Positions 23,450 through 60,310 of a stretch of 64,000 nt of DNA are shown here, piece after piece (the stretch's first letter is position 1; the number at the start of each line of letters is the position of its first letter). Below the pieces are notes generated by a model. That model saw only the letters and a program-made list of their open reading frames with translations, had not been told where the DNA came from and searched no databases. Origin of the DNA: Rhexocercosporidium sp. MPI-PUGE-AT-0058 (taxonomy: Eukaryota; Ascomycota; Leotiomycetes; Helotiales); the NCBI GenBank assembly GCA_020746875.1, contig JAGTJL010000034.1:186001-250000 (forward strand). Reading direction: 5' to 3'. Position numbers and translations under genes: made by a program.

Positions 23450-23924
23450 TTATCCTTCTCAGAAGTCAGTAAGTGCAGTTGGTAGAAGAACAGGATAAAC
23501 ATACTCTGACACTTTGCTCCCAGCCCCTCAAACCCGTTCTCGACACAGCGCAGATTCGACCAGCGGCAATCGGCGATAAAGACGTTGCCGTCTCTGTACA
23601 TCTGGGAGTTGGTTGTTAGATATTATAGATATTATAATGTCTGTTTGTGAGACGACGGTTATTTAAGAAGGGGATGCGAGAGGTGATGGGGAGGTGCTTA
23701 GGGTGGCAATTAAAGGAGAATGAGAAAGGAGAGGTATATCGTACAATAGCTGTATTGTCACATTTCAGCGGTACGGCGAGACATTGACGTGCGATTAATC
23801 CGTGACTGGGATTTGTATTTAAGGTTGTGGTTGAGCTTGGGTTCGAGGTCGGGACGGCGAGGAGTGGGGTGGCGAGGAGGAGCAGAAGGGTTGTGAGTGA
23901 GTTTATTGAGGCTGGAAAGAGCAT
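23450..23924 (-). CDS. small secreted cysteine-containing protein (effector-like)
   Basis: Probable exons are 23924-23745, 23601-23505 and 23457-23450, giving 94 residues. Intron 1 is 143 bp with a CTAAC branch site. Intron 2 is 47 bp (GTATGT donor, TTACTGAC branch). If intron 2 were retained the protein would end at 23410 with 123 residues. A signal peptide is visible (SLTTLLLLLATPLLAVP), then a Ser/Thr/Asn-rich propeptide-like stretch ending in LIAR, followed by five Cys in the mature part (QCLAVPLKC, ADCRWSNLRC, GAKC). No family is recognised. Size, signal peptide, Cys content and location beside AT-rich repeats fit a candidate secreted effector, but that role is inference. The last exon codes only two residues and is uncertain. 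Confidence 0.6.
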
Positions 23925-24327
23925 TCTGATAGATGAGTGTTAGGTTGTTGGAGTATAAGTGGTAGGTATTTGAAGGATAAGCAATTAAAGCGAGTGGACG
24001 AAAAGGTAAAAGAAGAGAAGGGGAACGTTGTATTTTTATACTTCCCTCGTTCTCTTCACCGCAGCACTTGAACTTACATCACGTAAAATAGGACAAATGA
24101 AGCACGTTACAATTTGATTTAGCCGGAACAATACACGGACTGACGAATCGCAAGCGGGGGTGGCGTCGTGTCAGCTTACGGTACCATCGCCGGTTAGCTT
24201 TTGTATATATAGTATGCATGCAGTATATAATAGAGATACATGTGATCTGAAGTATGGATTGTATACGAGATGGCAAATCATAATTGCGCGGCTGAGCTAT
24301 ACTGAGAGTGCACTTGTGGTAATGCGG
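23925..24327. other. upstream region of the small secreted protein gene
   Basis: About 400 bp falling in GC content towards the next transposon. A TATATATAG stretch lies near 24204-24212. No ORF with coding features is seen. Confidence 0.45.
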
Positions 24328-24329
24328 TA

Positions 24330-25345
24330 ACGTCCCACCCCACCTTCCGCCCGCCTTTTACACCAAAAATCGCGATTTTGAGGTATTAATATTTGTACAG
24401 CTAATTAATAAAAAAGTTTTTTTTTTGTATTCGAACTTATTAGCTCTTATTAACTGACATTACAAATGCAAATGTAATTTGGATTATAAATTATTACGTA
24501 ATATTAGATTTAAGTTTTTAAATACGAAAAACACTAAAATTCACTTATTAATAACTTTCTTAATAATTAATATAAATTTATAAAACTTGACATTCGTAAA
24601 AATTATATATAAACCTTAAAGTTCTAATAATTTTACAGGGAATTGTACTACTAGTTGTATTTTAACTAAGTAATTAATTTGTGACGGTTTGACTTGAAAG
24701 AATTAATTAAAGAGCTAATTATTAGGTGCGGGAGAGCCCTTTTATATGTATAAGTCATGCGACGTAGCGCGGATGCAGTGAAGTCGCCACATAATTTCTC
24801 TTATACAAATTATTTGTATAATTGTCATGTGTTTATCATGTGAGGCTGTTCTCTTAATTGGTATATGTACCAAGTAGAGCGTATTCTGCCTTAAGGCCGA
24901 ATACTGTAGTCTTTTGACTCCGATGGTGTACTGGTGTGAGCTCTACTCTCAGCCACGTTACAATAATGCTTTATATTTTACTTAATTATAAAATTATTAT
25001 TAATAGAATTAACTTAAAACTTAGCAATCTCAAGATATTATATAAAATACACTTTATATACAAGTGTTAGGGTTTTACATTAATAGTTATAGAAGTTAAT
25101 TAGAAAATAAGAAAAAATCAAACTTATATTAAATTTGTATAAAAGAAGTTTCTTAGACCTTTAAATACTTATTTTGTAATATTACGTAATATAAATAAAC
25201 ATCCTTATATAATATAAATTTTTTAATAACAAATATTACAAATCTTTAGTTTGAGCTTATTTTATTAATAAATAATAAAGATATTAATTATTAAAAGTAA
25301 AGAGTTTTAGTGTAAAAGAGGTAAGGAAATAGTAAGGTAAGACGT
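24330..25345. mobile_element. non-autonomous element with Fot1/pogo-like inverted termini
   Basis: Left end ACGTCCCACCCCACC and right end (reverse complement) ACGTCTTACCTTACT are each flanked by TA (24328-24329 and 25346-25347). The inner part of the termini also matches (CTTTTACACC against CTTTTACACT). The ends match those of the element at 27166-28959, so the two belong together. The interior is about 1 kb of AT-rich, stop-saturated sequence without recognisable transposase, and a possible LTR lies inside it (24680-24962). TA duplication and terminus type fit the Tc1/mariner-pogo superfamily. Confidence 0.6.
24680..24962 (+). repeat. possible solo LTR
   Basis: The segment begins TGTGACGG and ends CCACGTTACA, resembling the TGTGAC...CGTTACA ends of the Gypsy LTRs further right, and holds a TATA-like TTATATGTATAAG. 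It is GC-richer than its surroundings. Flanking 5-mers (TAATT and ATAAT) do not match, so a clean target duplication is absent. Confidence 0.3.
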
Positions 25346-25347
25346 TA

Positions 25348-27163
25348 CGGTATAATAGCCGATTCATTTCCTGTATACTCGAGGACTCGTTTATAATCGA
25401 GGAAAGCAAGTGTCCCACGAAAGCGAGTGTCCCGCGCTACGTCAGAATTTATTAAGGTTATTAAATTTATTAATAGCTAGTACTTAAATTAAATAAACTT
25501 AATAATTAATTTCGTTAAGAAAACTAAATAATACGAAATCAGCCTAATAAGTAATTAAATTAATTGATTTATTATTAAACTTAGCATCTAACGACTCTTT
25601 AAAAGCACTTTAATCGTTGGCGTCAGGCTCAGAATCGACGTAATCTTTAATTATTTCAGAATAAGTATTTCTAAATTTAAACTTTACTTCTTAGCTTAGT
25701 TTTATTATCTTTGCTTATATTTTATCTTTATGAACCTGTATTAAAAGCTGTGGAAAAGCTTCTTTATTACATAAAGATTCTTCAAAGATTATAAGTTGCT
25801 TTTCGGAGTCGGCGAGATAATCGCTGTACCTTCGTAAGCTGCAGGAACTCGAAGGGGATCGCCGAGCTACACCGGTCCCTACGAGGTCATTGGAGCTGGC
25901 TAGCGTGGGAAATACTACTTCGTCGCAGGGGTAATAGATGTCAAAGCAAGCGGTGCTAATATAAACTTAAGTAAGGAAAAATGCTCAGAATTTGAAAACC
26001 CTATTGGACAGTTTCCCTTGTTATCAACGAACTCTCTAGAATTCTTGGCTATAACTATTGCCCCGATTACTAAAGTATATCTGCAGCTTAATGCTGTGGC
26101 AAGCCCAGAAGTAGAAGCGTAGCTTATCTTTCCAGACGGTTACCTAGCCGTCGCTACTTTAACTTCGGGCCTAGTCAGCCTTAGAGCAATCAACGAAATG
26201 AATGATCGTCCGATCATAGTCCTATCCAGATACCCTAGTAGCTGCATGAAGCACTAAGCATTCGCTAACCTCCCCTGTACGGAGGTACGGAAGTACAGCG
26301 GTAAAGTGTTGTACTTCGTTAAAGGGGCCGCAGGTCCCTGCTCTTGCTCCACAAACACTTGCCTTTAAGGAGTAATAACTTAATTTCGTAAGTCTAATAT
26401 AAGTACGTATTATTAAAGGCAAGTGTACGCTAATAAGAGTATCCCCTTGTTGCCCCTCTTATAATACTTAACCACTATACCTCTGTAGATAAAAATATTC
26501 ACAGACGGAGGTACATAGAAAAGGTAACAAGGACGTTAAGCGGTTGTCCGATCCGATGGGATCGAAGCTGCCAGATATGAGATAGTGGAATAATTTCGAA
26601 ACTGTGCAGAGTAGAGCGGGAGCACTTTCACTTGATTAATGAATATTGTCGTGTTAGTTACGTGGATCTCGTTGTTAGCAATTGCGAGAGCCTACCGCCG
26701 CGATGCGGTAAAGAATTGATTATTCGAAACATAACATGTTGTTGATACCGAAGCTGAGCTGCAATTAGGCAACCGTCCACTAGTCGATATGTCACCGTCC
26801 CAAGTGCCAGCCCTTAAGCGATGACGGCCTCTAGGATATCCCCTAAAGAATCCTTTTATCGTTCGTTCCTTCGCCGTATTTATTTTGCTTAAAGGAAATC
26901 CTTTAAACCGGCACAGAACGACTAGTTTATACCTTCGTTATTCCTATATCCCACTTGATAGCACTTACGTTTACTCTACTTTATCCTCCGTATTAAAGTC
27001 CGCTCGAATTACTACTATCAAAACAAGGCGATAAGACAGTACTTATTATATCCGCCTTTTATTAATCGTCACGAACTTAATTCAAATTATAAATCCTTTA
27101 ATTATCTTAGATCAAGCTATCCTTATTACACTTGCTTTCTACTTCTCTTTAGCTACCGTAATC
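25348..27163. other. degraded region between two DNA elements
   Basis: AT-rich DNA with a GC-normal island at about 25800-26850. The island includes a plus-strand frame (about 25878-26258) that reads through with only two stops and encodes SLEFLAITIAPITKVYLQLN and PDGYLAVATLTSGLVSLRA. I recognise no family. It is most likely a relic of an unknown gene or element that escaped heavy mutation. Confidence 0.4.
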
Positions 27164-27165
27164 TA

Positions 27166-28959
27166 ACGTCCCGCCCTACTATTCCGCCCACCCCCTTATT
27201 CCGCCTACCCTCGCTTAACTCACCGCCACTCTTACTTATTATCTTAAATAATGAGTTTCTCTTTTATTTTTTAATTAATTCTTTTTAAATTTGAAATACG
27301 TATTCTTTTTATTATAAAGCCTTAATATACCGAGTACGACGTTATATATACGTATATAAAGATTGTAAACGGCAAGTTATTACAGAAGGCATTACTTAAA
27401 TAAGATATTCCGGGGTTTATCTTATAAAGAAGCCGCTAGTTATTTATAAAAGTTACTTATTTTAGTAAAGAGTGGATTAATTAATTAAGTTTTAATTTAA
27501 GAATCTTTTAATTATAAAGTTACGTATATATAAATCCGGGTTTTTACGGAGCGTTTTCTAGCTTTTTAAAGAGATAATTTACTAATTCGAAAGCATTAGA
27601 ATTCCAGATTTTTAATACGGAATCGTATTTTAAAGACGAAGAAGTAGATATACGTTGATTTTATAAGTATTAATAGCGCTTATTCCGATATTATTAAGCG
27701 TTAATTTAAAAAAAATTAAAGATTCCGGCTATTAAAGCTATTCTAGCGAGTTATATAGACGAGATTAGTATTATAAAAGATTATAATTTAAATAGCTTTA
27801 TTATAAAGCAGGCTAAAAGCGTAAAATTCATAGAAAATAGTTTGACTCACGTATTTAAACGTTAATTATTAAGTATATTTTTATTACGGGGTTTTTTATA
27901 TAACTTTTTATAATTTACAAAAAGAAATTAATATAATAATAGTGATTTCCGTCTTAATTAAACGTATTTAAAGACTGGCACTTTATTACAACCGATAATA
28001 AGTAGACGACTAATAATATAGCTCTTGAATAGCTAGTAAAAGTGTTAATTTCTTAAACGGATTTACGTAATTATGTAATAAGATTCTTTATTTTAGACGA
28101 CTACAAATGCTATAAGATTACGGAATTCCTTTAGAAGTGCCTTAAAAATAATATATTTTAATTATATTTATTTATATATACGTTATACGTCTTATAATCC
28201 TTAGATTTAACGGTTTTCTTTACGCTAAAGCGTGCTTACCGAGAGGAATTATATAAGTTAAGTTCTTTAATCGATTACACGCTAATTAGCAAGCGTAATT
28301 TCTTTGCTATTAAAAAATACGCCGAGATATTATTATTTCTTTTAATATTAAATTTAAGTAAAGAGTTAATAGATTATAGCCAGTATCTCTGCGAAACCCT
28401 TAATAAGCTTATTATTACTAGAAAATAATAATATATCTACAGCCCCGATTCTTTAAGACTCTTAAAGAGAATAATAATATTACCTCCCGAGCTTTTTAGT
28501 ACTTTTATTTAATTATAAACTCTTAAAGCTGCGAAGGATTTTTATTTATAAATACGCATTTTAGTAAGCGAATTATATGATTAGTATTCGACGCAGCGTT
28601 TCCTTTTCAAGAAGATTATAAAAGGTTTTAATAAAAAAGATTACGAATTAAAGAAGGTAAATATAAGAATTAAAGAATTAGAAAAGCGGTTAAAGCAATT
28701 AAAGCTAAGGAAAAAGAAGAAAGTTTAAATTAGCTTAAATTTCAAGTTTGCGATAATACGTATTATTTAAGTAGCTTAAATTACGGCTGGAGATTATTAA
28801 CTTATATTTATAGAATTAGAATTAAAAGAAGATTTTGACTGTATAAAATATTATATAAAAGTTAACGTAAAATAGAATTATTAAGTATTAAATAAAAAGT
28901 GCTGATATTACGCGAGGTAGGCGGAATAAGAGGGTGGGCGGAATGGTAAGGTAGGACGT
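27166..28959 (+). mobile_element. Fot1/pogo-type DNA transposon, RIP-degraded
   Basis: Terminal inverted repeats of about 45 bp: left ACGTCCCGCCCTACTATTCC, right (reverse complement) ACGTCCTACCTTACCATTCC, both continuing CGCCCACC. Each end is flanked by TA (27164-27165 and 28960-28961). Length is 1.79 kb, the usual size for Fot1 relatives. On the plus strand near 28070-28260 a decayed transposase catalytic region is legible in one frame: FILDDYKCYK (the second catalytic Asp region, canonically ILDGH), then SLDLTVFFTLKRAYREE, equivalent to the QPLDV.VF.PLK..Y signature of the DDE_1 domain. In-frame TAG/TAA sit where Trp or Gln is conserved. The copy is dead. Confidence 0.8.
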
Positions 28960-28984
28960 TAGTCACAAATTTCTGCTTTCCTTA

Positions 28985-29868
28985 GAATACAAGGGTGGTC
29001 ACAAGGAACTGGCTCCACTTCTCTTGGAAGCATAGGCGCTCCAAGAACGCATACTATCTCCACGAATTATACATTTCTCTTTTGATGAGATGGTATGGGA
29101 ATGCAACTCTGGTACTGATTGTGAATGTGGCTTTGGACAAAGCTGTTCAGGCAGAGAGCTTTCAACGGGTCCCGTTGGCTTAATCATTTTTAAACACTTG
29201 TTTAGTAAGAGCCAGAATTTCGATTTGCACAACTCCGATGAAGCCGATAAGGTTAATTACGAAGAGGGATGTGGCCGCGATACTACAACCGAAACGAAGC
29301 TGCACCCTCTTGGTCATGGGCTTCGATTGAGCCCAGTGACAGGACTAGTTGGGACGAAACATTTACAAATTTGCCTGCTGTATACAACGTATTCAGCTTC
29401 GATAACTCCTCTTACGCAGCTCACGAGAAACTCTGAATTATCGGTCACTCTCTCCGCTCTCCTAACGAATCTTTTTCTTACGAAAACCTGGCTCCGGGAA
29501 ATCGAGTGTAAACCATTCTAGAAGCACCATTTATCAATGCGACCATAGTGATAGCACAAACCAGTCCAGAAGCGGCCCAGCCTCCGAACCCGGAAATCGC
29601 AGACTCCAAAGAGGGTATCGACTTTCAAGACGCAAAACGGCCTTAAGTAGACGATAAATCTGAAAAGGCAGCCCAATCTCCGAACCCAGAAATAACCGAC
29701 TCTGAAGAGACTAGTGGATTTAAAGACACAAAGCATCCTGAAGTAGACAATACATCTGAAACATCAAAGAATCCGGAGGTTTACGGCTATCAGTCAAATG
29801 GAAGAACACTCCCATTGATGGATGGTGAAAATTTTCTTGAAGGAACCAGGCAGGTAGTTATTATATAA
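28985..29868 (+). pseudogene. HET-domain (heterokaryon incompatibility) gene relic
   Basis: Frame 2 from 29030 reads EA, stop, ALQERILSPRIIHFSFDE then WECNSGTDCECG, which is the classic end of the HET domain (W-x-LQERLLSPR...FWEC...CECG). The stop TAG at 29033-29035 stands where Trp is conserved. After a frameshift, frame 1 carries YYNRNEAAPSWSWASI (29278-29328), the equally typical post-HET motif. Two further stops follow, then two 32-codon acidic repeats and a terminal stop at 29868. The N-terminal part of the HET domain is absent; the DNA transposon ends 24 bp upstream. HET proteins trigger cell death after fusion of unlike strains. This copy is non-functional. Confidence 0.8.
29569..29760 (+). 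repeat. tandem duplication of a 96-bp coding unit (2 copies)
   Basis: Units are 29569-29664 and 29665-29760, each exactly 32 codons in the same frame, encoding the pattern AAQ-PNPEI-DS-E...DF/GFKD followed by P-VDD/N-SE. A TAA in unit 1 occupies the place of GAA in unit 2. The repeat belongs to the C-terminal tail of the HET-domain relic. Confidence 0.75.
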
Positions 29869-30910
29869 TGTGTCATGTATGGCTAGTGTCTTGTATTCGA
29901 GTAAGACTTTTACCACACGTCTAAATTCTGCTTCATTTCCATCACCGGTCGTTCTCACCTTGAAAAGTCTCTGCTGTCTTTAAAGTCGGGAAGAAACACG
30001 CTGGCTAATCAAGGGCTTAGACAAAGAGATGACCCATGTGGTAGATGTTTTCACTACAGGCGATACGAGAATTAAAGAGTCTACTCGTTGCAAGGACCCA
30101 TGTTGACATAACAGCTGGGGTCTAGCCTTATTTCATGAAAATCTAAATATTCACATTCTTGCCTCTAAACATCAAAGTCTTGGAAGGACATTCTCCACTT
30201 GGACATCGAGCAGAAGAGTCAACGAGTATGAAAAACCTATTTGCAAGAGTGGAGTTGAGTGACAGTAGACATTGTTACTTTCACGATTGGCGCTCTAATT
30301 TAGCTACGCACCCATTATCATGGACAGCCGGCGGCGCCCTCTCTGGCTTTTTTCCATACACAATTTCACTTCATATCCGTTAGTAAGCTATGCTCACCTT
30401 GAGCAATAAACTTCCAACAGCCCGGAGAAATAGTTCCGGGAGAGTCTTGGTCGCAAGGGAGCCAAAATGGGATTATCTTCTTTATATCAAATAAATACTG
30501 ATGGTCACCCTAAAAGAGCGGTGTAATTTTTCAAAATGAGCTAAACAGATACTGTGACCCGAACGACGAAGCCCACCAGCTGCTTACGGATAAGTGATGC
30601 CAAGACAGTGCATCAACATATTATGTATGGGAAAGCATCTCCATCTGCTGCTGATGGGCGGATACTATGGTTAGGAATAGCCGTAGCAGATTTCATCTTA
30701 TCGTTTCGTGACACTTATCGGCCATAGACACGCTTTCCCTTAAGTCCTATTGAAGGAGGTTTCTATCTACGAGGAATACCAGCATATTATAAAAGAAGGT
30801 AGATAGGTTATATCCACATCATCATAGAAATATTGCTAGTAGGTTATGCCCTTGCATGTACAGTTATATGTGTGTATAGATGAGAGAGGGGAAAAAAGGG
30901 AAGAGACTGG
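29869..30910. other. intergenic region between HET relic and P450
   Basis: About 1 kb of moderate GC content. A 74-codon plus-strand open stretch (30159-30383) has no recognisable feature. It contains the 3' flank of the minus-strand P450. Confidence 0.5.
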
Positions 30911-32569
30911 TTACAGATCAGCGAGATCAGCTCCAATTTGGTTGAGAATAGCTGTGTGATCCTTGCTATAAGTATCACCATCTCTGGCAATCACTTTCCG
31001 CACCCAAGGACCACGAGGGTTAAATGAAGCTTTGAAAGGCAGCGCCCGCATAACCAGACCATAGGTGCATGCAATGGGGTCAACGGCGATAGGCTCGCCC
31101 GTCTCTTCAAATAGGCCAGCCTTGATGTCGAATGACCATAGCAGCTGGGCGACGACGATCCAGATGACATTACGGGCGAAATAACGCCCAGGGCAGGTCC
31201 GCCTTCCGTAGCCGAAGACAGCAGAGGGGAGGGTTTTAAGTGTCTTGCCATCTTCCTCAAGCCAGCGATCCGGTAAGAAATCGTCTGGGTATGGGCCGAA
31301 CAAGGCCTCTTCCCGGGAGATTGTCCATACATTAGGCACAATAACAGATCCCTTGGGAATAGTGTATCCATTATAGGTAGTCTCCTCCTTATTTAAATGA
31401 GGAACGCCCTCGGGGCCGACCGGCCGCCAACGGAACACCTCTTCGACAATGGCGGTGACGTAGGGCAGGTTGGGCTTATCATCTAGGATTGGGAGTCGGT
31501 CCTGTCCGACAAAGGCATCTAACTCCTCGCGTGCCTTGTCGACGAATACTTTGTCTTGTACGATGCAAGCCACCACAAACCAGATCAAGCTGTCTGTAGT
31601 GCCATCCAACGCGGCGTCGATCATGGTACCAAGCTCAAACGCTAGCTCGTCCATGGGCATGTCAAGGCCATCCCTTTCGACAGTCTTCTTGAGATGTTTT
31701 GAAATATTCCAGGCATCCGACTCTAGGCCCCGCCGAAAGTTTTCGTGGCGCAGATCGTACTTGGTCGTGTAGTGATTCTCAGCCTTTGCCTGCCAGGGGG
31801 CCAAGAAGCCGGGCAGATTATTAAGCACAGGGAACTGGTCCACAATGTGCGTGCCAACCTGGATAAACTGGGAGAACTCATCATTGAGTTTAACAACGGT
31901 GCGAAGCACCTGATCGTTATAGTCTTTGACACGGAAGCCATATAGCAACGTATGGATGATGCTAGCAACTGCGCGCTGAAAAGGCCCTTGAACATCAGCA
32001 CCAGCACCGCCCGCATTTTCTAGCAGGTCGTGCATCAATTGTTGTGATTCTAGAGTCTGGAAGGGGAGGTATGCGGTTGCCGGCGTCAAGTTCAACACTG
32101 AGACCTGTAACCTCTGATGTTGTCGGAATTGCTCGGTGTAATTCATCATGAGGATGTTGAGTCCTTTTAAGGCCAATTCCGTCGCCAACTGCAGTTGCCA
32201 GCCCGTATTAGCTCATCTTTGCACTGACAAGGTGGATTGGCAACGGGAAGCGTAGAGTCTTACAAAAAGACGAGGTCTGTCTGAAAATATAGCTCCACGC
32301 TTCGCCAGGAGGTCGTGGGCTACTTCAAACGTAGACAAAATTATGACGGGCTGTCCAAGCATATTGACGTGAACAATGGACCCATACTGCTTGCTCCATT
32401 CATGATACGTCCTCCAGCTGTAGGACTTAGGAGCTTGGTGGACATTGCCAATTATTGGCAATGGCTTGGGGCCAGGCGGCAGGGGCAAAGACGAAGTTGA
32501 TTTGCGCCGAGTGATAATATACATGCAAGTTAGCAGCCCGGCAATAGCTGCGCATGTTGCTAAATACAT
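30911..32569 (-). CDS. cytochrome P450 monooxygenase (microsomal, fungal secondary-metabolism type)
   Basis: Two exons, 32569-32264 and 32188-30911, separated by a 75-bp intron (GTAAGA donor, GCTAAT branch), give 527 residues. N-terminal anchor (TCAAIAGLLTCMYII) and proline hinge (LPLPPGPKPLPIIGN) indicate an ER-bound enzyme. I-helix stretch DAALDGTTDS, ExxR motif EEVFR, PDRWL, and haem loop FGYGRRTCPGRYF with Cys 434 are all intact, so it should be catalytically competent. Overall style is that of OrdA-like P450s that hydroxylate polyketide or terpenoid intermediates; family number cannot be assigned by eye. It diverges from the P450-terpene cyclase fusion gene 1.3 kb away, with only a small relic between, so it is the natural candidate for a tailoring enzyme of that product. 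Confidence 0.93.
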
Positions 32570-33040
32570 GATGATTAAAATTAGAAGAATATACCACTTC
32601 GTGACACTTCGTGGAACAGATGTAGATTGTCGACGATAGAAGTAGGTAAATTACCCTCAATGGGTTGGAGGGGAAGATTTTGACCTATTGTTTAAGTTAG
32701 GAAGCAGATCGTGGCAGCTGCCTCGTTAAGCCGATTCTGTCAGGAGTGCTTTATAACTCCCAGAACGACTTCTCGGCTGATCAATGGTGCAATATGAATG
32801 CGTCCTTAGCACATATCTAGTTAAAATGCGGCACAGGTTGCTGAACCCTCTCGGTCAGATTATAGCGCGGTCGTCGAACATCCACCTCATGATCCATTAT
32901 CACCTTACCCTCAGCTCAACACCATCGGTCCTTATGTTCTTCCATCCTCTTTCCTTTCTGTTTCATTCCCTTCTTCTTATAAACTCAAAAATCTTTCCAC
33001 CACTAATACTTAGCACAAAATACTTAACAGCCTAAACATA
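32570..33040. promoter_or_regulatory. upstream region of the P450 gene
   Basis: Left part of the divergent interval between the two terpenoid-locus genes. No clear TATA box or known operator is recognised. Open frames here are short and lack coding signature. Confidence 0.4.
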
Positions 33041-33235
33041 GCCCTGTCAAGCGTCCCCCGTCTTCTCTTCACTACCGTCTTGCTCTACCCTTCCTTCTCC
33101 CGCTTCACAACCGGCACCTATACCCCCACTTACCACGCCTATCAAACGGCACGCCTCGGAAGCGGCGACGTGCCTATCGCGTGCGGCGACGCGCTACTCG
33201 CCACGCTACTAACGGTGTGGACGACCCGCGTTTAA
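33041..33235 (+). pseudogene. relic of a small membrane-protein gene
   Basis: A 64-codon frame with strong C/G third-position bias, unlike its AT-richer surroundings. It begins ALSSVPRLLFTTVLLYPSF just after an acceptor-like ...TTAACAG/CATAG and contains GTYTPTYHAYQTARLGSGDV and ACGDALLATLLTVWT before TAA 33233-33235. The same frame stays coding-like past the stop to about 33315. It reads like part of a fungal multi-pass membrane protein interrupted by a stop. No start codon is visible and I cannot name the family. Confidence 0.4.
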
Positions 33236-33885
33236 GCTGCGGGGCTGGCGACGGCGCTTTCAGTCGTGCCTGTTACGCAAGGGCTACACGAGAGGGGGGT
33301 GCAGGGCGTGGTTTAGGAAGCTGGTAGGATTGAAATTGAATGTGGATGGAAGGTCTATGGGGTTTGTTAGCATGGAGATGGACGATGTATAGCAGCATTT
33401 AGGTTCTGTGTGATGGACATGAATTCTGGCGGCTAATTATGGCTTAAGCCACATTCATGTTGGGGCTGCCCTAAGACGCTAAAAGGTTTTCTGAATACGA
33501 CAAAGTGTAAACCATAGGCTACTTCGTATTATGGGTATATAATGTGCATTCGCAGTCTGTGCTCGATTCCAGAGGTTTCTACTTGCCAGGGCTACATACA
33601 GGGTTATTATCCAATGATAAAGGAATGTTAATCCTCCATATAGCCAATTCTCTGGATTTCATGGATTTATACACAGACTAGAATTTTACATATTCACCAC
33701 TGTTACTTTTCTTCCAACCGACCTTTTGTTTCATCGCATCCGCAATATTCTTTCCTGATGACAAGGTTTATCTTTCGTTCTCTTGCATTGAATTGAAGTC
33801 AATTAACGAAGAGCCCCTCTAATCTTTGAACCACTCCTTCTCTAATACAATAACACATTTCCCCCGCATTTGTTTTCAAACGACA
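33236..33885. promoter_or_regulatory. upstream region of the P450-terpene cyclase fusion gene
   Basis: About 650 bp. The last 60 bp upstream of ATG 33886 are pyrimidine/A-rich. An in-frame upstream Met at 33826 would only add 20 unremarkable residues. No specific operator was recognised. Confidence 0.4.
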
Positions 33886-36800
33886 ATGGAAATCATGAAG
33901 CAGATGATCCGGATCCCCTCTGCCGACCTTTGGGTCATAGGAGTAACTATTTTATGCGGACTCATTCTCAATGTTTCTAGTCTGATCATCTACCGCCTTC
34001 TTTTCCATCCTCTGAGACACATTCCCGGCCCTCTCTCGGCCAGGCTGACCTACGGGTATCAAATGTACTACGATGTCTACCTTGGAGGTCTCATGCCGAG
34101 GCAACTATCAAAACTTCATCAGAAATACGGCCCTATCGTTCGCATTGCTCCAGACAGAGTACATGTCGATGACCCCGAATTCTACAAACGGTTTGCTCCT
34201 ACTTCCGAGAATCAAGATTGAACACTGTGCTAAATCCTCAGATTGTTCGGCCCGCGAGAGGACTTTATCAAGGCCAAGTACTACTACGGAAATCTCGGCA
34301 TCAGCGAATCGATTGTCACACTTCAAGATTCCAAAGCCCATCGACGACTCAGAAATTCCCTGAACCCTTTCTTCAATCCCCAAGCAGCTATCGATCAACG
34401 CCCTCTTGTATTCGACGAGATCAGGAAGTTGCTCAACACTCTCGGGGAGAAGCGTAATGGGACATCTTTGACTAACATCCAAAGGACTTTGGGGCAACTC
34501 TTTGTGAGTTCGGGTTTTGCATATCATGTTGTACGTTAAACTGATGAGCAAGGTCAACCTGACGTGCCGAACGGTATTCGGACTGCACGAGATGTCGGGC
34601 GAAGATGCTTTCACTATTTTCGATGGCATTTCGGGATGGTTTTCATCTTTCAATGTGGCCCTTGCATTTCCACTCATTCCGAAGATCGCATTGAAGTTAC
34701 CTAACTGGCTGACGACAAGGATTGTCCCAGGATATCTGTGCATCCTGCAAGTAAGATAACTTCATTCAACATATTTTGCCAGACTATAATAACTCTATTA
34801 GAACGTTCGAGTCTGCATAGCGCAATGCAAGAGCAGAATGAAGGGTTTAGGAACCTTCACTCAATACGACAATGTCTTTGACATGCTGCAAGTCTCAGAA
34901 TTTGGCGGGCACCAATTGAACGAGACGCAACTTCTACACGAAGCTATCGAGCTTCTAGCCGGCGGCGTTCTTCCGACAAATACAACAGCCTGCTATGCCG
35001 TATACTTCATCCTCACTCACCCACGCGTTTTGGAAACTTTAAAAAGGGAATTGGCTGGCCTCCCAAAGACCACACACGGGATTCCAAGCTGCGAGCTCTC
35101 AACAGATGCCCCCTATTTGGTTCATCAACCTCTGTTTCTATTCTCAATTTCGATTGCTAACTCATATTAGACAGCCATCGTCAAAGAAACGCTTCGTCTT
35201 CGCCCGGCTGCGGGGCCTGGGTTCTTACCAAGAGTTGTACCTCCGAAAGGAGCCTTCGTCAATGACACATTTATCCCGGGCGGGGTGAGACTTGAGACTG
35301 TCGCTTTTGTCTTTTAATTTTGGAGGCTAACTCACCTATCAGACCATCGTCTCCACGAGTCTCTATTCCGTCAACACAAACCCGAATATTTTTAGAGATC
35401 CCATGACTTTCAATCCCGACCGTTGGCTGAGTCCTCAATCCGAGGATGGGGAAGATTGGTTCGTCTCCTTCTCAAAGGGACCTAGGATGTGTCTTGGGAA
35501 ACAGTGAGTGCCGCCACAGAAAATTTGGAGAAATATACTTATTCTGTCGAATCTTAGTATTTCAATGCTCTCTATCTCCTCCGTATTGGCGGCAGTGTTC
35601 TCAAACTTCGAGTTGACGCTCGACGAAACTGACGACGAGACAATGGAATGGAGAGACCAAACGCTCCTAGTCAACAAATCCCACATCATGGCCTTTGTCA
35701 CCCCGATAAATCTCTCAGCCTCTCTCCAAGAGCCCGCCACCGTCGTCCTCCCCGATCTCTTCGTCAGCTGGGCCGCCACTCCCGTCAAACTGAATCCTCT
35801 CTACGCCATCGAGGCCCCTAAAGCCGAGCTCTGGTTCAAAGAGTACGTCTCCTTCCTAAAGCAAAGCCGTTCTTCCCCCTGACACATTATCAATTATCAG
35901 AACCTGCAAACACGGCGAGAAAATGCACAAGAAATATCTGAAGGCAGATTTCGGGTATTTTGCCGGGACATGGGCGCCGGATGCCGCGGCATCTGAATAC
36001 ATCACCACGATCGACTACTGCAACTGGGTTTGTTGTTCCCTCCCTCTCTACATCCCATTCGCTGACTACAGGATTCCTTAGGTCTGGGCTTTTGATGATC
36101 GTTAGTTGCATCCATTACTTTTGCTTCGATTCTCTGGTTGATGTGTTTTGGTGGATGTGAATTTTTTTATTTTGCTAATGTTGGGTTTTCATAGCGTTTG
36201 ATGAGGGAAGCATGAAATGTCGACCCGACCTCATCCAACGCGAATTCGACAATTTGATGTCTATCATGTCGGATAATCCGCGAATATTCACCCCAGAGAA
36301 TCACCCAGTGCTGTATACCTTCCAGCTGATCTGGCAGCGCATACTGAAGGTAAGTCCATCCATTGCTCCCCCTCTCCCAACCTCTTCCAAACCAATCAAA
36401 AAAAAAAAAGAAGCTTGGTACTAACTGCCGTTTTAGAGATCTACACCATGTAAGATCTTACTTGTGAAAAAATAAGAAGATTGAGATGGAGTGTATTAAC
36501 CCACACCCAGGCATCCAAAAAAGATTCCGCCAGTACCAGTACGACTACATGTCGCAAATCCTCGAGCAGTCGAATCCAGCCGTCATAGAGACGTACACCG
36601 ATCTCGACATCTTCGTTGCCGCGCACCGGGAATCCGTTGGCTCGAAGCCTCTCCTGCCGCTCATCGAGTAAATAGCCGCCCCATCAATCTCAAGTGTAAA
36701 TCAAGCGTGGCTCACAAATACTAGGTATTGTTACGGTATCGACGTGCCAGAGTTCATCTTCGACGATCCTGCGATCCAACGAATCGTCGATTTGCAGGCT

Positions 36801-37400
36801 GAGCTTATACTGCTGTACGATCCCCCTCCCCTCCTCTCATACACCCCATTAATATCAACATAAACATCAATACTAACAACGCCCTTCTCAGCGCAAACGA
36901 TGTTTACTCTTACGCGCGCGAAGCAAAGGTGCCCTCTCTTCCCTCCCTTTGCTCCTCTCTCCTCCATCCGTCCATTTCAACAATCCCTAACCCCTCCCCA
37001 CAGGTCGGCGAATTCCACAACGTCCTACACATCCTGCGCAAGTCAGGCATGACGCAACAAGAAGCCCTCGACCACGCGGGTGCCGCCACAGTAGCACGCT
37101 ATCACGAGTGGGACGCTGTTGTTCAACAAATCCCGAGTTGGGGCGAGGAGGTTGATGCCATCGTGAGACGGTTTGTGGAGATTAGTCGGATCAGCGTGAT
37201 TTCGAATTTGGATTGGAGGTTAGTCTTTTTCTTCCCTCTCTATTTTTGCGGGGGTGGAGGGGGGGGATGAAGGAGACGGAAGGGAGAGTGAAGAGGGCTA
37301 ATGTGATTGTGGCAGTTTCAAAAGTCAGCGCTATTTCGGCAAGAAGCATGAGGAGGTGAGGCGGACGAGGAGAATCAATGCTATTCCGATGCCTGTGTGA
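33886..37400 (+). CDS. cytochrome P450 - class I terpene cyclase fusion protein
   Basis: Sixteen exons: 33886-34190, 34242-34503, 34553-34750, 34802-35119, 35171-35284, 35343-35503, 35558-35842, 35901-36027, 36082-36100, 36195-36349, 36437-36449, 36511-36667, 36725-36814, 36892-36928, 37004-37218, 37316-37400. All phases close, giving 846 residues. P450 part (1 to about 505): membrane anchor, LFHPLRHIPGP, I-helix LLAGGVLPTNTT (306-317), ExxR E367-R370, NPDRW, haem loop FSKGPRMCLG with Cys 449; wording is like trichodiene-oxygenase-type fungal P450s. After a roughly ten-residue linker in the same exon (SASLQEPATVV), LPDLFVSW opens the cyclase (about 517-846). It has a metal-binding DDPFDE (D595-E600), the NSE triad NDVYSYARE (N737, S741, E745) and WSFKSQRY (R824-Y825). 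All ligands are intact. Predicted role: cyclise a prenyl diphosphate (size suggests FPP) and oxidise the hydrocarbon in one polypeptide. Exons 9 and 11 (19 and 13 nt) are the least certain. Confidence 0.88.
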
Positions 37401-40400
37401 AATGGGGATGAAGGACACGGATTTCTTTGGGTTGGGAGGCGGTATGTGCTTATAATTTTTGGTATGAGTACCCCTGGATTGTGGGTTTCGTGACGAAAGT
37501 CTCAATAGACTTCAAATTATCTATCCTTTTTCTTCTACAGAGCGCAACCTACTTCTTTATATCTACAGCCTTGACTCGGTGATCGGAATGGTCTAGTCTG
37601 AGGATATCTCAAGACCATGGTCTGGACCGGTCTTACTGGTTGGTCTGCTATAAATAGATCGAACTAGACAGGCGGATGGCGGGCGGGTGGCAGAATTTTG
37701 GAATAATATAGTTAGAACAGTTATTATCAAAATTTCTGTCCAATGAAAAGGGGCAATCGTAGTGCGCAACAACCTGCTTATGCAGTTGTCATAGAGTCTC
37801 TAACCCTAAACTTGCGGGCTCCAATAACTGCAATGTCAACGTCAACGCCTTTACACCATCTCCTGCCCCTACCCCGTCATCTGTCATGGTACAAGAGCAT
37901 GAACTACTTCTCAACCCCCTAAGGAGCACGCCGTAGAATCAGGGCGCGGATCTGCGATTGCGCGCGTATTACTTACTAATCCGAATATAATAACAAAAGT
38001 ATCGTTAAAATCGTCAAATTACGGGCTATTAAACGCACTAACTTTTATAAGTTTATAATAATTACAACTCGCGATGCACGCTTTTGAAAAAAAAAATACG
38101 GAAATGCGGGCACGACGTTACTTTAAGGAGCTATAAATTCTGTTGTTTAATTTGTAAGAACGATTAATAAAATACTAAAAGACGTTATACTTTTTATTAT
38201 AATACCGTTCTTAATAGTTGAATACGCAACTGCGCAACGTTTAATTAATCTTATATTCGCTTCTGTAGAGCCTCAAGGTATGTTACACGATAGCTTATAA
38301 TTGTAGTATAAATGTAAATCAAAGCACTGCGAGCAGTTTAAGTTAAATTAAAGTAATCAATTATTATTTTAATTACAAAAAGAATTAATAAAAACAGTTA
38401 TTCTCTTAAAGGCGGTCTATAGCAGCAGAACTTAATTAGGCCACGTGCAGTGCCAAGGGAGCAGCTGCCCGTGCCTATACGACAATTACTTTTTATATTT
38501 AATCGATTTATTAATCTTTATAATTAAGGTATTATTATTTTAGCGTATTTTATAAATCGAGAGCCCGAATTAGCGTCTCATTTACGCTTTAAACGGTTTA
38601 AGAGCATTTAAGACGGCGATTAATCTTTTAGCTTTTAAAAGCCGCTTATAAAATTTCTTATCGTATTCGTCTTTAATTATTAATAGCTAATTATTCTTAT
38701 TAAATCTTATTAAAAAATTGAATAAATCCTAAGAAATATAATAAAAAAGACGGGTAACTACTTTCTTTAATTAATAACGACTTATTACTTGCTGTATTAT
38801 AGCTACCGTATAATACTCGTATTTTAACCGAATTAAGCCTTGAATCTCGACGTTACGCGTATTTTTTATTAGGTTTTCTAAAGCTTTTTTTTAAAAAAAA
38901 ATAACTTGCGCGTAGATATTATAAGTAAACTTCGTCGACTCGTAGTTTTAAATAACGTCTGCTTAATCAAAGGCTTTAGCGGATACTCTTTTCTAACGTT
39001 AGAATATTAAAAAGCTATAATTTAAGCGAATTAAAATACGGCAAGTAATTGAAAAGCTTATATTTAAAGAAAACTAAGTTAAATTATCCTTAATACTATT
39101 ATTTGAATAACTGAGAGAGAAGAGTCTACGGAAATTCAGGTCTATATTAAGCTTTATTATATATTATTATATAATAATAAAGTAATATAGTTAACCAGAA
39201 GTCGAAAATTAGGACATAGACACTTATATCCCACTTGAGATATTCTTAGCGAGCGAGGCTATATTATAAATAAGTAGAATTTTATTAAATTTATATCTTT
39301 TATAACAGAAGGCGCTTGCTTTATTAATATCGACGGTAAAAATACTATAGACCTTTTAGCTTTCCGCTTTTTTGACATATCTTATAAACTGGTCTAAAGT
39401 TGACTAAAGAATTTAATACTTTTAGTCGCATTCTAAAGAACAATTCAGAAGGTCGTAGGAAACTTCTACTTGATTTTATTAACTAATTAAACAAAGATTC
39501 CTTTAACTCGGATAACTCTTAAAATTTCTTTGCAAGTTAAGTTTTAAAATTGTCGGCCGATCGATTTAAGATAATGTTTCCGGCCTTAGAAATCCTATTT
39601 CTAAGTGACATCTCCTTTAAGATTGCGCAAAAAGGAATTGCATATGCTATTAATTTCTATTAGCTATCGTCTTTAACATTACGCTACTATTCTTAGTTAG
39701 AGAAATTTCTGACTGAGATTATTAGCTCTGGTTAAACGATCCGACTCTTATCACTAGAAGTTGTTTAGAGCCTATCGGACTATAATATTAATATATGTAT
39801 TACTTTTGTAAGCTTTTTAAGGAAATTTCAGGGTCTTAAGGATTTATTTGTCGGTCTCCTAGGACTAATCGATACCTTAGAGCTTTAGCGTAGTATAATT
39901 TATCATTAGTCAACTTTTACTAGATTAGTTTGTTAATAAAAGACGGTGAACCTCGATGATAATTCTCTTCATTTCCAAGAAGAGATAGACTTTTTAAATC
40001 TATCACTTTTGCTAGATGACAGAGTTGAGTTAGATCGATTCGAGTCGCGTTATCCCTTTGCGGCGCTGAACTTGAAGTTTATTAGCGTAAGATATATGCC
40101 TTAATATTTAGTATAAAATTTCATATTTTAGTTAAGCTTTAGTTGATTTTCTTTCAGGAATAAGTTGACTAATAATTTTAATACTCTTGAAGAAGTCAAT
40201 TTAAACACCGTTTATTATTAGTCCAACGTTGAAGATCTTGCATATAAGGAAATCCGGTGTTAATATAAAGGGCTATAAGAGGGGATCGAGAGGAACTTTA
40301 TTCTGGGATCTAGATTCTGACGAAGACAGTTTTACCGATGAGGAACTTTTAGGCTTAGCCGGGCGTAATAGACTTCATTCATTTAGCTGGCCGGGCACCG

Positions 40401-40410
40401 GCCCAGCGCC
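37401..40410. other. 3' flank of the fusion gene grading into an AT-rich degraded block
   Basis: The first 550 bp have normal composition and no gene. From about 37960 the sequence becomes AT-rich and stop-saturated. Near 40229-40415 a 63-codon plus-strand frame (DLDSDEDSFTDEELLGLAG) has normal composition and is interrupted at 40415 by the LTR element; the same frame resumes for only a few codons at 55730. The remainder looks like RIP-mutated repeat of unknown type. Confidence 0.5.
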
Positions 40411-40415
40411 GTATC

Positions 40416-40673
40416 TGTGACAATAAGTGCACTTAGGAGCTTCTCAGCGAGTCAGGGAATCCAGGGGTTCAGAGGTAACTAAGTCATGCCGAGTCGGACT
40501 AGTACCGGAGGGGTTTCGGAGGAGCTTATATATATAAACTTATACTCCTTCCACTTCCTCTTTCTTTCTTTATCTTCTTATTTCCTTTGTATTAGACTTA
40601 TTAGCTTTCGATAGCCTCAGCTAAAGTATTATTATATACTTCTTATACCGCTCTTTTAGCTAGTATCGTTATA
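40416..40673 (+). repeat. 5' LTR of the outer Gypsy element
   Basis: 258 bp, TGTGACAATAAGTGC...ATCGTTATA. It contains a TATA-like TATATATATAAA (about 40527-40538) that would drive plus-strand transcription. Differences from the 3' LTR at 55467 are C/T and G/A transitions. Confidence 0.9.
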
Positions 40674-43600
40674 TTAAACAAGAAGATTACTTCCGCTAAA
40701 AACGGCTTTATAATACCTTATTAAAGATTTAATTATTAATATTTTAAAAAGTCAAGATTTTAGAGATTTCTTAATAATTAAAAACTAAAGTTTAATTTAA
40801 TACTTCGTAATTAATAACGCTTAAAGCAGTCTTCGCTGATTACGCTTTAAATAATCCCCTTCGCATAAAGGCCGCTATAAACAGATTTTAAAGAAGTGTT
40901 TTTATTATACTCGGAACTTTATTATTTAAATACGAAACTCTCTCCGAATTTGCCCCGAGTTAAATATTTATTTTTATTATGACTTATTATATCTTAATTA
41001 ATTATTAAAGAACTTATTAAATTAAGTCCTTTAGCTGCTACGACTTCCTTAAAGGCGCTTCTTGATTTAAAAACACCTGCTGCCTCGCCCTTTAAAACTA
41101 GTATTATTATTTAAAAGAATAAAAGCAAAGCTCGAGACGATACGAATTATAATAACTTTAACGTTTTAAAAGGATTATTTTAAGCTATTAATAATCGAAC
41201 TAAAAACTAAGTAAATAAGCAGAAAGAATTCTAATTTAGCTTTACTAGAATTAAAGTTATGCTCGTAACCTTTATTATCTTTCGGCTTAATTTAGTACGA
41301 TCTGACGATAATCTTAAAAAAGACTTTATTCTTTCCGAGCCTTCTGAATTACTTCAGAATCGCTTACGAACCCTTATTCCTCTTTTATTCCGATTAATAG
41401 AATTTAATAGAAATTCGCTAAGAAGTTATACTTCTCTTACTCTTAGAGCTTATTTAAGCTCGTTTCGATTTCTTAAGATTTAATTAATAAAGAAGATTAT
41501 TTTATTAAATAATAATTTAAATCTCTTATTTAAATAATAACATACTTTAATTTAAGACCGCTTAAAAGTTAACGCTAATTTTTATTTAATAAAAAGAGTT
41601 TATTATATTCTCGCTTAAAGATTAATTACCAAAACCGCATAATTTTACTTAGAATTTTAATACTTTTCAGAAACTTATTCTTTTAAAACCGCTAAGGAAA
41701 TAATTATATTCTTAAAATCTTATTTCTTAACCGGCTATAAAGCGAACGAGTTCTAGTCTGTTTTTTACGATTTATATATAAATCTTTATTTTAAAGAGAC
41801 TTTTACTGAGTTTAAAATAAGATTCTAGAGCGTTATTATCTAAAATAACGTCGTTAAATCGGAATAGTTCTTTTATATAATAAAAGCTCTCTTTTAAGTT
41901 ACAAGACGAAATCTCTATTATTAAGCTAATTTAAGAGAATAATTATAATAAAATAGTTTCTTATTTTATCTCGCTAAATTTAAAGAACCGCCGGAATCGT
42001 ATATTTAACTTAAATTTCATTTTAACTCGCACTCCGAATATAACCCGAAAGCCGTCCGATTTAAGTCAAATTATTTCTTTCGCTTAGACGCTTATTTAAA
42101 GAATTACTTTTGCCTATTAATCTTCTTTTACTCTATTTTAACGCTCTTTTACTTCTTAATAATAATTTATTCCTTTTTTATCGCGTTAAAACTTTATATA
42201 TTTAAGGCTTTAAACTTCTATAAGCGATAATTTAGTTAAGTATTATAATTGCGGTAAATTTAATTATTATAAGAGCGATTACTCCGAGACTCTTAAGATT
42301 TAATTCGTAAACGAGAGAATTAAGGAAGAAAGCGTAAAATTAAAAGAAAAGTAAGAAGAGTTATTAAAAGGATAAATAAAGGAAAATAAAAAAGCTTAAA
42401 GAAAGACTTTTTCTTAAATTTATATAAATATAATTTATTAAAGCTTAATTTAAACTTCTTTATAAAAAGAAAATAATTCTTAATCTCTTATATTATTAAT
42501 ATAAATAAATATAACGTTATATTCTCCGCCTTAGTAAGTATTAAAACGAACGATTACTTCTTTATAAATCGGACTTTTTCCGTACGCTTTTCGAAGGCTT
42601 TAAGAATAAAGATTCTATTTTTCTTTTATATTATCTTAATCCGTGGTTTTTAGAATTCCGTATAAAGCTACGCCTCTTATTATATACGTCTTTACTTAAT
42701 AATAAACGGCAAACGCGTATATAATTGCCCTTTTATTATATTTAATTTAAAAAACTAAAATATAATAATTAACGTTAAATAAATAAAACGCTTTCGCGTT
42801 AAACTCGATTCAATTAATAACCGTCTTATATAGCCTTTTATATACTTACGAATTCCTTGCTGGACGAAAGAATTAATTATATCGCTTTTTATTAAAGCTA
42901 AAGCAAAAACTATTAATTATTATTAATTAAATATTAACCGACGTAACTTAATTATAAATTAAATTAATCGGAGACGACGACACTGCTAATTCGCTATTAA
43001 TTATATATAAGTATTGACGTTATTAAAGAATCTCTTTAAGAAATAAAAGCTAGAAATAGCTCTAGAATCTTTATTATTAAAGCCGGTCGGAAAATTAAAA
43101 GCAAAAAAGCTTTATTTACGATTATATTATCGCCTAGAACTTATTATAATTTTGTAAAAAACTTCTTTTTTTATTTATAAAATTAGCGCAAACGTATTCT
43201 ATTTTAATATAAAAAGCAAAAATATTAAATTCTTTATAATTAATATTTATAAAATAAACCGAGTCTTATAAGAAAAATATAAAAAAAAGAATCCGAATAT
43301 CTTCTAAATCGTGGCCGAAAAGCTTCCGAAGTAATATTAACTTCTTAAAGAAGTATTTTCTAAGATAAAATTAAACGTTTTATTATTTTATTAATATTAT
43401 GATTATAAGATTTAATTAAAAGCTTTATTATTTAATTCTTATTCTCTTTTATACTATTAATTAATAAAAGAATTAAAAGTATTAAAAGAATATCTCTTAA
43501 AGAACTTTAATAAAAGGTTTATTAAAATAAGTTAAAGTCTTTTTGCTTTTCTTGTTTTTTTTATAAAGAAAAGTAATAAAAGGTTACGTTTTTATATTAA

Positions 43601-46067
43601 TTACTATCGTTTAAATGCGTTAACGCGAAAGGATTCATATTTTATACCGAGAATCGACGAGCTCTTCTCCCGCGTATTAAAAGCTAAAATATTTATTAAA
43701 CTCGATATTCAGGCCGTATTTAATCGTATTTAAATAGACCCCGAGTCGGAAAAGTATACGACTTTTTGTATTAAGTATAAGACTTATAAATATAAAGTAT
43801 TATCCTTTAGACTTTATAATAGATTAAGCACGTATTAACGTTATATAAATAACGTATTATTAGATTATTTAAACGACTTTTATATAATATATCTTAACGA
43901 TATCTTAATTTATTCGGAATCGATAGAAGAATATAAAGAATACGTTAAAATAGTTTTAAAACGGCTTATAAAAGCTAGCTTATAAGCTAATATTAAGAAG
44001 TATGAATTTTACGTTATTTATACTAAATACTTAAATTATATTATAATTATAAAAGAAATTAAAACCGATTTAAAAAAAATAAAATTATTACGGAATTAGA
44101 AATACTTAAAGATTATTATAATAACGAAGTCTTTTTTAAGTTTCTACGGTTTTTATCGATAATTTATTCATAACTTTAGACTTATCGCGAAGCCTCTTTC
44201 TACGCTTACTTAACTTACGATTCCTTAAAATTAAACGGAAGAATATAAAAAAGCTTTTAAAGAATTACGGAATTAATTATTAATTATATAAAAGATTTAT
44301 TATTTTAATCTTAACTTATTAATACGACTAAAAACCGACGCTTTCGATAAAGTAATTGCAGGCGTAATTTCTTAATAATACGCTAACAGATTATAGTATC
44401 CCTTAAGATTTTACTTTTACGTCTTAAATAATTATAAGCTTAATTAGGAAATCTATAATAAAGAACTTTATATAATTGTAGGATCGTTTTATAAGTAGCG
44501 TCTTAAACTCATATTTATTCGGACTAGATTTAAAATATATTCGGATTACCGATCCTTAAAATATTTTATAATAATAAAAGTCCTTATAAATAAGTAAACT
44601 TAATAAATAGAATTCTTATTTAATTTCAATTTTTAAATTATATATACGTTAAGCAAATAAAATCAAAAAACTAATATTTTCAGTCGAAGAAAATAAGACT
44701 TAAAAGTTTAAAAAAAAGTAAAATTAAATAGCCGATTTAAAGTCTTACTTGCGCTTAATCGCCTTAACTTTAAAATTAATACGGAATTAACGGATAAGTT
44801 TATAATTAATATTATTTCTCTTTACTTTCTTTTTTTAAAAATAAAAGACGCCGTTAACGATTCGATTTTAAAATTATTTAAAACCTTATTTAACTTTATT
44901 AAAAAGCTTTATTAAAATAATTATAAGTCTTTTATAAAAGAACGGAAGTCCTTACTTAAAGATTATATAATAACGAACGAACTCTTATACTTTAAAAGCC
45001 GTTTATATATATAAAAGAATACTCCGCTATATATTAGACTGATCCGAAAAGCTTATAATTAACCGTTTATAACGTATTTAAGTAGAAAAAAAACTTACTA
45101 GCTCCTTATTCTTAAGTATTATTAATTCAAAATAAGTTCGGATTATATTTAATATATAAGAAATTATAGAACTTATTAATACTTTTATTCTAAATAAATC
45201 AAATAATAAAAGTTCTTATACCTTTTACTTATTATATATACCTTATATAGCACTTATATATAAATTATAAAGATTTTCTAAAAAATAAATATAATTTTAA
45301 CCGAATCTTAATATTTATTAACCGCTTTAAAAAAGATTCCGTTATAATTTCTTATTATTAAAATATTAACGCTTATAATATTACTTAATTATTTATTTAA
45401 TAAATTTACCGATTTAAATATACTTCGGAGATAATTATATTTGATCGCGGCGCTTAATTTGTCTTCTTCTTTTAAAAAGAATTTTATTATATTATCGGCG
45501 TTAAGATTAAGCTTTTTATAACTTATTATAAGAAAACAAACAAATAAACGGAGATTATAAATTACTATATCGATTAAAGGCTTAAATTATTTATTACTTA
45601 TTACTAAGATAACTAGAATAAATTAATATTTTTAATCGATAAAGCTTAAATATCCTTACTTTATAAATCTATTAATATAACTCCGTATTAACTTAAATTC
45701 GGTATAAAATTATATAATAATTAAGATTAAAAAACGCTTAAAGCTATTATTTTATTAAAAAAGCTTAATTACGCCGACGTAAAAAAGCTAACTTAATATA
45801 TAAAATAAGCGTGAAAAATTATTAAAAGAAATATATAAGCCGCTTAAGACCGTATAACCCGCGTAATAAACCAGAAACAAAAGCTTATCGACTGGGAAAT
45901 CGGAAAAAAAGTCTTCTTATTAATTAAGAACTTTAAAAGCTACCGTCTTAATCGTAAGCTTATAAATTAATAAGAAAGCTTTTTCAAGATTTTGAAAAAA
46001 ATAAGCTATTCTTATAAACTAGAATTACTTATAAGCTCTTATATATATAACGTATTTATACTAGAAC

Positions 46068-46325
46068 TGTAACGATATTAGCTAAGAGAGCGATATAAGA
46101 AGTATATAATAGTACTTTAGCTGAAGCTATCGAGAGCTAATAAGTCTAATACGAAGGAAATAAGAAGATAAAGAAGGAAAGAAGAAATAAAAAGAGTATA
46201 AGTTTATATATATAAGCTCCTCCGAAATCCTTCCGGTACTAGTCCGATTCGGCATGACTTAATTACCTCTAAACCCCTGGATTCCCTGATTCGCTAAGAA
46301 GCTCTTAAGTGCACTTATCGTTATA
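46068..46325 (-). repeat. 3' LTR of the nested Gypsy element
   Basis: 258 bp, reverse orientation (reads TGTAACGATATTAGC on the plus strand). It is preceded by target copy AGAAC at 46063-46067. Confidence 0.9.
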
Positions 46326-46799
46326 TTACTCTTCTCTTAGAAAAGAAATTATCCTTAATCTTTAATTAGTCGTAGTTTGATATTATTACAGTATTAAAAG
46401 CTCTTATCCGAGGTTAAGCGAGGTTACGCGAGCGTAAGCGAAGTCTTATATAATAGTAAATAATATATTATAAGAAAGCGAGCTTTTATTTGTTTAATTA
46501 ATAAAATAAGCGTCCGAATCTAATCTATTACTTATTGTATTATACTGCTTTAGCGCTATTAATTTATTTGCTCGTATTAGCGTATATATACGTTAAACTT
46601 TCTAAAGAATTAATTCTTTTTCTTTTAATAATATATACTTCTCTATAAGTTATTCTAAATTATCGATCTGCGTTATATAATTACTAATACGTATAATTAA
46701 TTAATTAAAATAAATAAATAATAATAAATAAATAAAATCCCGTAACTTTTATAATAAAATCTGAATTCTAATTATAATAATACCTTTTCTAACCTTATT

Positions 46800-55724: not shown

Positions 55725-55729
55725 GTATC

Positions 55730-60282: not shown

Positions 60283-60310
60283 CCGCTTTCGCTTTCGCTT
60301 TCGCTTTCGC
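60283..60310 (+). repeat. (GCTTTC)n hexanucleotide tandem repeat
   Basis: About four to five perfect GCTTTC units, with degenerate units extending left to about 60253 (TTTCGCTTTCGCTT). This is a simple-sequence repeat in a promoter region. Confidence 0.85.

Follow-up and report, generated by a model that had tools for sequence, protein, structure and literature searches.

Terpenoid making usually follows a division of labor: a cyclase builds the skeleton and a cytochrome P450 oxidizes it. Genes for the two often lie side by side. Pairs of separate PF19086 and PF00067 genes, often <1 kb apart, are reported from Sclerotiniaceae, Nectriaceae and Aspergillaceae in the available part of PMC13288456. 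Solved structure 8h6q is one cyclase of this family, presilphiperfolan-8-beta-ol synthase, or BcBOT2, of Botrytis cinerea (PMC10563020, in the portion accessible to us). Natural fusions are on record as well. PMC9501842 and PMC10608071 describe HS-HMGS, which unites hirsutene synthase and HMG-CoA synthase in one fusion, and A8411 is also termed there a fusion enzyme that makes hirsutene (PMC9501842 / PMC10608071); the statement in our initial annotation that fungal cyclase fusions join a prenyltransferase was thus too narrow, since HS-HMGS has another partner.

Here we describe a gene of the fungus Rhexocercosporidium sp. MPI-PUGE-AT-0058 in which a P450 and a class I terpene cyclase share one reading frame. 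It lies in the window, the stretch of 64,000 nucleotides that we analyzed. With a probability of about 0.8, we believe, it encodes one bifunctional polypeptide, anchored in the endoplasmic reticulum (ER), that cyclizes farnesyl diphosphate and oxidizes the product with its P450 half, and that was born by deletion between a P450 gene and a cyclase gene.

Gene organization and reading frame

From start codon to stop codon the gene occupies 33886..37400 of the plus strand. The splice model comprises 16 exons, which join in phase to 2541 nt including the stop, that is 846 codons, with no internal stop and a single terminal one; the predicted start codon is the first ATG that follows a stop in the same frame (ORF 33823–34221). 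When the gene was rebuilt, the coordinates first assigned to it, the 16 exons, exon 7 at 35558–35842 and the 846 in-phase codons were all reproduced. The 15 introns, 49–97 nt in length, are GT-AG without exception, and 10 of them contain the pattern NCTRAY. Some donors, among them those of introns 1 (GTTTGC), 4 (GTTCAT) and 14 (GTGCCC), are weak, and single exon edges could differ for this reason. To judge from the sequence, the whole is probably transcribed as one unit. At E <= 0.001 the encoded protein matches two Pfam families only, those of its two halves; neither a prenyltransferase nor a flavin reductase domain is found in it at that threshold.

The cyclase half

The cyclase forms the C-terminal half of the protein, residues 512–846 (35733..37400, plus strand), and is encoded by the latter part of exon 7 and by exons 8–16. 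The Pfam profile Terpene_syn_C_2 (PF19086) matches residues 586–777 with an E-value of 3.5e-33 (115.5 bits against a cut-off of 23.7). The match to 8h6q is longer: residues 512–837 align with its residues 25–353 at E 6.9e-59, with 107 of the 326 query residues identical by a count of the alignment midline. That identity is too low for the product of BcBOT2 to be transferred to the cyclase studied here.

The signatures of class I terpene cyclases, DDxx(D/E), NSE and RY, are all present, and each lines up with its counterpart in BcBOT2. The metal-binding motif, DDPFDE, comprises residues 595–600 (36094..36205) and is split by intron 9; the NSE triad, NDVYSYARE, supplies N737, S741 and E745 (36896..36922); and the RY pair is R824 with Y825 (37329..37334), each on the plus strand.

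The junction

The two halves meet in exon 7 (35558..35842, plus strand), which carries the tail of the P450 and the start of the cyclase, as the splice model, the ends of paralogues and codon usage all indicate. The P450 side can be placed by the closest P450 paralogue, L039 on contig C1. This protein ends KPVTS-stop and aligns with the fusion up to residue 504, where the fusion reads TPINL (501–505); by tblastn alignment its stop falls at about residue 505. The cyclase side can be placed in two ways. Homology to BcBOT2 starts at residue 512, and the stand-alone cyclase paralogue L078, on contig C14, opens with MVLIPDIF after an in-frame stop, the counterpart of which in the fusion is VVLPDLF at 515–521. 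By our reading of the printed sequence, the fusion and L078 also have introns in common downstream: a phase-2 intron, which is intron 7 of the fusion (WFK(E)/TCKHGEK) and the first intron of L078 (WTI(K)/TCGYNEK), and the next one, in phase 0 after NW. Intron positions compared in the same way reveal no partner in L078 for intron 9 of the fusion. Given the L039 stop, the start of BcBOT2 homology, and the L078 start with its shared introns, exon 7 has the appearance of two exons made one, the final exon of a P450 gene and the initial exon of a cyclase gene.

Between the L039 stop position and P512, where BcBOT2 homology starts, lies a linker of approximately residues 506–511, SASLQE (35715..35732, plus strand), with edges that are approximate. 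With about six residues between them, either fold may restrict the other. No in-frame stop codon separates the P450 tail from the cyclase start, and any terminator, promoter or leader would have to fit within coding sequence. Codon usage looks coding across the seam in the reading frame only: residues 490–535 score +0.242 bits/codon in frame versus –0.489 and –0.174 out of frame. Training used 3616 codons from nine of the window's ORFs, hand-picked as stop-to-stop frames and including the neighboring P450 described below, and 46-codon windows in those same nine ORFs average 0.213 with a standard deviation of 0.094. On this evidence the join is more than chance. Gene anatomy, paralogues and coding signal together give the in-frame fusion good support.

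One way to question this is to suppose that the locus yields two functional products, the full-length fusion and a free cyclase of 350 residues, by means of an internal transcript or of initiation at M497. This methionine (35688) is the only one near the seam, the next being M556, inside the cyclase. It is 15 residues before P512, and its start context is favorable (CACATCATGG, with A at –3 and G at +4); moreover, a cyclase of 350 residues would be similar in length to relatives that stand alone (8h6q has 366). However, M497 is inside the C-terminus of the P450, so a cyclase begun there would retain the end of the P450, and the model puts a promoter and 5' leader inside P450 coding exons. We regard two products as unlikely. 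As had been said of exon 7 at the outset, it carries the C-terminus of the P450 and the opening of the cyclase with no stop between. As for alternative splicing that might separate the halves, none of the donor-like patterns scanned for lies wholly inside exon 7; two matches occur at its edges, at 35557, overlapping the acceptor, and at 35843, the true donor. The exon also contains 11 plain GT dinucleotides, at which such splicing may occur.

The P450 half

Exons 1–6, together with the beginning of exon 7, encode the P450 half, residues 1 to ~505 (33886..35714, plus strand), its end being set by the L039 alignment. Pfam p450 (PF00067) matches residues 67–493 at E 3.8e-57, with 194.5 bits against a cut-off of 22.8. 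Near the N-terminus, residues 13–36 (33922..33993, plus strand) form a hydrophobic stretch on the Kyte-Doolittle scale, probably an ER membrane anchor; the six highest 19-residue windows all fall within residues 10–40, and the maximum is 2.43. Both hallmarks of P450s are present on the plus strand: the ExxR motif as ETLR, residues 367–370 (35186..35197), and the FxxGxRxCxG haem-binding loop as FSKGPRMCLG with Cys449 (35469..35498), which aligns with the haem loops of paralogues. A search of solved structures with the P450 half gives 275 distinct matching sequences at E <= 0.001; the top one, heading the best 60 of the 275, scores 89.3 bits, so that none is close.

The initial annotation held that both halves keep every key motif. 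For Cys449, ExxR, DDPFDE, the NSE triad and the RY pair this is so; it does not extend to the acid-Thr pair of the P450 I-helix, which had not been listed and which is absent. The oxygen-activation motif of this helix, (A/G)Gx(D/E)T, is common in the P450 superfamily but not obligatory, and so does not define membership. In tblastn alignments with other P450s of the genome, the I-helix of the fusion, LAGGVLPTNTT (34955..34987, plus strand), has GGVLP in place of the motif: the acid is replaced by L312 and the Thr by P313. In the majority of those other P450s the site is AGxDT or AGxET.

The set behind this comparison was 40 stretches of the genome, 39 picked from matches to the P450 half (not all P450s) plus a stretch of contig C11; with the neighboring P450, 41 sequences were compared. 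The I-helix could be aligned in 35 of the 41, leaving out L038, L066, L074, L076, L077 and the neighboring P450. Of the two P450s in L048 one was kept, and L057 and L059 are gapped at the site with letters misaligned. As raw counts, the acid position holds D or E in 21 of the 35 aligned loci, two gapped rows being among the other 14, and the position equivalent to P313 holds T in 31 of 35. L039 has Val for the acid and keeps the Thr. On contig C14 there is a P450 adjoining a cyclase whose I-helix, by our own splice reading, is AGSEPT across an intron, with Pro at the Thr position. Pro313 is therefore not unique in this genome.

Could the P450 half be catalytically dead, serving only to hold the cyclase at the membrane or as its scaffold? 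Leu312 and Pro313 speak for this, and because the acid-Thr pair is absent while L039 keeps its Thr, the monooxygenase function of the P450 half may be changed or weakened. Against a dead half stand the intact haem loop, Cys449 and ExxR, the fact that absence of the acid is not rare in the count above, and the cyclase-linked P450 of C14 with its own Pro at the Thr position, on account of which we did not take death by I-helix change as the leading reading. We consider a dead half improbable and prefer to regard both halves as active. Loss of the acid-Thr pair, in our view, need not mean that the P450 half has lost its function; its chemistry may differ.

Cyclases and P450s elsewhere in the genome

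The assembly searched for paralogues amounts to 62.7 Mb in 60 contigs, and its introns and gene content suggest a filamentous fungus. The PF19086 profile matches it in at least six places besides the fusion, which is not itself among the matches, being split over short exons. Three of the six loci, on C11, C14 and C41, were read for upstream stops: each cyclase starts after an in-frame stop and is thus a separate gene, and no second P450-cyclase fusion occurs at these three. The remaining loci, on C58, C13 and C60, were compared with the cyclase half by tblastn alone. Outside the window, a search of the genome with the cyclase half at E <= 0.001 finds only C14, at 36% identity over 84 residues. 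The best match there to the P450 half is the C1 gene, 32% over residues 200–504; it is stand-alone, with its own stop.

On C11 (stretch L038) a cyclase at 1653–2744 and a P450 at 3987–5876 lie on the same, minus, strand, with the P450 upstream and ending at its own stop. The cyclase is one open frame of 363 residues from the first Met, and the spacer to the P450 is ~1.24 kb with the start codon that we chose. The pair is an unfused version of the gene order of the fusion. On C14 (L078/L084) the closest cyclase paralogue is divergent from its P450, roughly 0.5 kb apart with the start codons that we chose. Near the C41 cyclase, no credible match to the P450 half of the fusion appears in C41:84000–93900 (9.9 kb; best E 1.6), a search that could miss a P450 of another family. 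Cyclases and P450s, it had been remarked at first, are usually separate neighbors, and the pairs on C11 and C14 agree, as does PMC13288456 in the part available.

That pairs in this very genome are separate genes, with for example the ~1.24 kb spacer on C11, might suggest that two genes were wrongly joined here by an assembly or sequencing error, but such an error must delete the whole spacer along with the stop codon of the P450 and the start of the cyclase and yet keep the frame, both domains and the coding signal across the seam, which makes it very improbable.

The neighborhood

A second, stand-alone P450 lies beside the fusion gene and divergent from it, on the minus strand at 30911..32650 (PF00067, E 1e-61). 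It consists of two ORFs separated by an intron, its only one, and is apparently complete, with the haem loop FGYGRRTCPG. Linked to the fusion by position only, it may act alongside it within one small cluster and is a candidate second tailoring enzyme. Six-frame Pfam scans of 22000–33901, which could miss genes of short exons, match nothing else there except a relic of a DDE_1 transposase.

The fusion gene has a GC content of 0.47–0.50 and AT-rich blocks flank it, 22–29 kb (GC 0.27–0.43) on one side and 38–56 kb (GC 0.21–0.35) on the other, so that the fusion and its neighbor make up a two-gene island of ordinary GC. The DDE_1 relic is at about 27898–28290, inside the first block; relics of reverse transcriptase and RNase H are at about 43563–44582, inside the second. 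Beyond 22000–33901 and the fusion itself, Pfam scans covered the plus strand of 37450–46400 and of 55500–64000. Farther downstream, two long ORFs with repeated Cys-rich modules occupy 57866–59865 (minus strand) and resemble a secreted alpha-1,3-glucanase, and an ORF at ~61300–61800 (plus strand) is like an alpha/beta-hydrolase, with a best Pfam score of 24.0 bits, just below the cut-off of 26.3.

Proposed function and origin

If the protein works as its parts suggest, the N-terminal hydrophobic stretch would anchor it in the ER membrane. In its Mg2+-dependent pocket the cyclase half would ionize a prenyl diphosphate, in all likelihood farnesyl diphosphate, and turn it into a cyclic sesquiterpene or the corresponding alcohol. 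That product would then be oxidized by the P450 half. Electrons for the oxidation would come from a separate P450 reductase, because the fusion has no reductase domain of its own. As to origin, a deletion probably removed what lay between a P450 gene and the cyclase gene downstream of it on the same strand, joining the last exon of the one to the first exon of the other.

A hydrocarbon might pass directly from the cyclase to the P450 half. A bolder version of the idea, which we offer as speculation and think doubtful, is a single-chain sesquiterpenoid synthase-oxidase in which the cyclase, carried on the C-terminus of the P450, hands its product over at the ER surface and in which the hydroxyl of an alcohol, if one is released as by BcBOT2, replaces the I-helix acid-Thr pair in activating oxygen. 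Cyclization and oxidation would then be coupled chemically as well as physically, and the altered I-helix would be tolerated.

If the natural fusion is what it seems, evolution sometimes welds a cyclase and a P450 together. The fusion would offer a direct test of product transfer between the two and a ready-made template for the engineering of others, and its changed I-helix raises a question of mechanism for which a single expressed protein would suffice as a test.

Comparison with known systems

One precedent for P450 and terpene synthase activities in a single protein is the albaflavenone monooxygenase/terpene synthase, which we take to be CYP170A1. CYP170A1 has both activities within one P450 fold; it resembles the fusion in uniting them, and the fusion differs in having two domains. 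The profile for this enzyme, NF051859, scores 58.7 bits on the fusion against a cut-off of 700.

Other P450s fused to a second domain are the P450foxy/BM3 reductase type and the dioxygenase-P450s (PMC5919972, PMC4950769), in some of which, as here, the P450 is N-terminal. A P450-hydrolase in mycophenolic acid is reported as a further natural example. In these known P450 fusions the partner is a reductase, a dioxygenase/peroxidase or a hydrolase; here it is a terpene cyclase. Among the matches listed from the open-licence literature, in the text available, no P450-terpene cyclase fusion was found; subscription journals lie beyond that scope, and an earlier report may exist, as may relatives of the fusion elsewhere.

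Fusions of the cyclase supply parallels of another kind. The bifunctional prenyltransferase-terpene cyclases (PMC11026467 and PMC10563020, as far as available) likewise place two successive terpene steps on one chain, but they couple chain building to cyclization, whereas the fusion has no prenyltransferase domain. HS-HMGS, in the parts of its sources open to us, is like the fusion a natural fungal joining of a PF19086 cyclase to another enzyme; unlike it, the partner is an enzyme of the upstream pathway (PF01154) and no oxidase.

BcBOT2 is the nearest solved relative of the cyclase half and matches nearly the whole of it, although it is a chain of 366 residues without a P450. Closest in composition are the BcStc5 cluster, as described in the available portion of PMC13288456, and the C11 and C14 pairs: each sets PF19086 beside PF00067, as the fusion does, but in two genes rather than in one frame. 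The fusion is best seen, then, as the welded form of a known two-gene unit.
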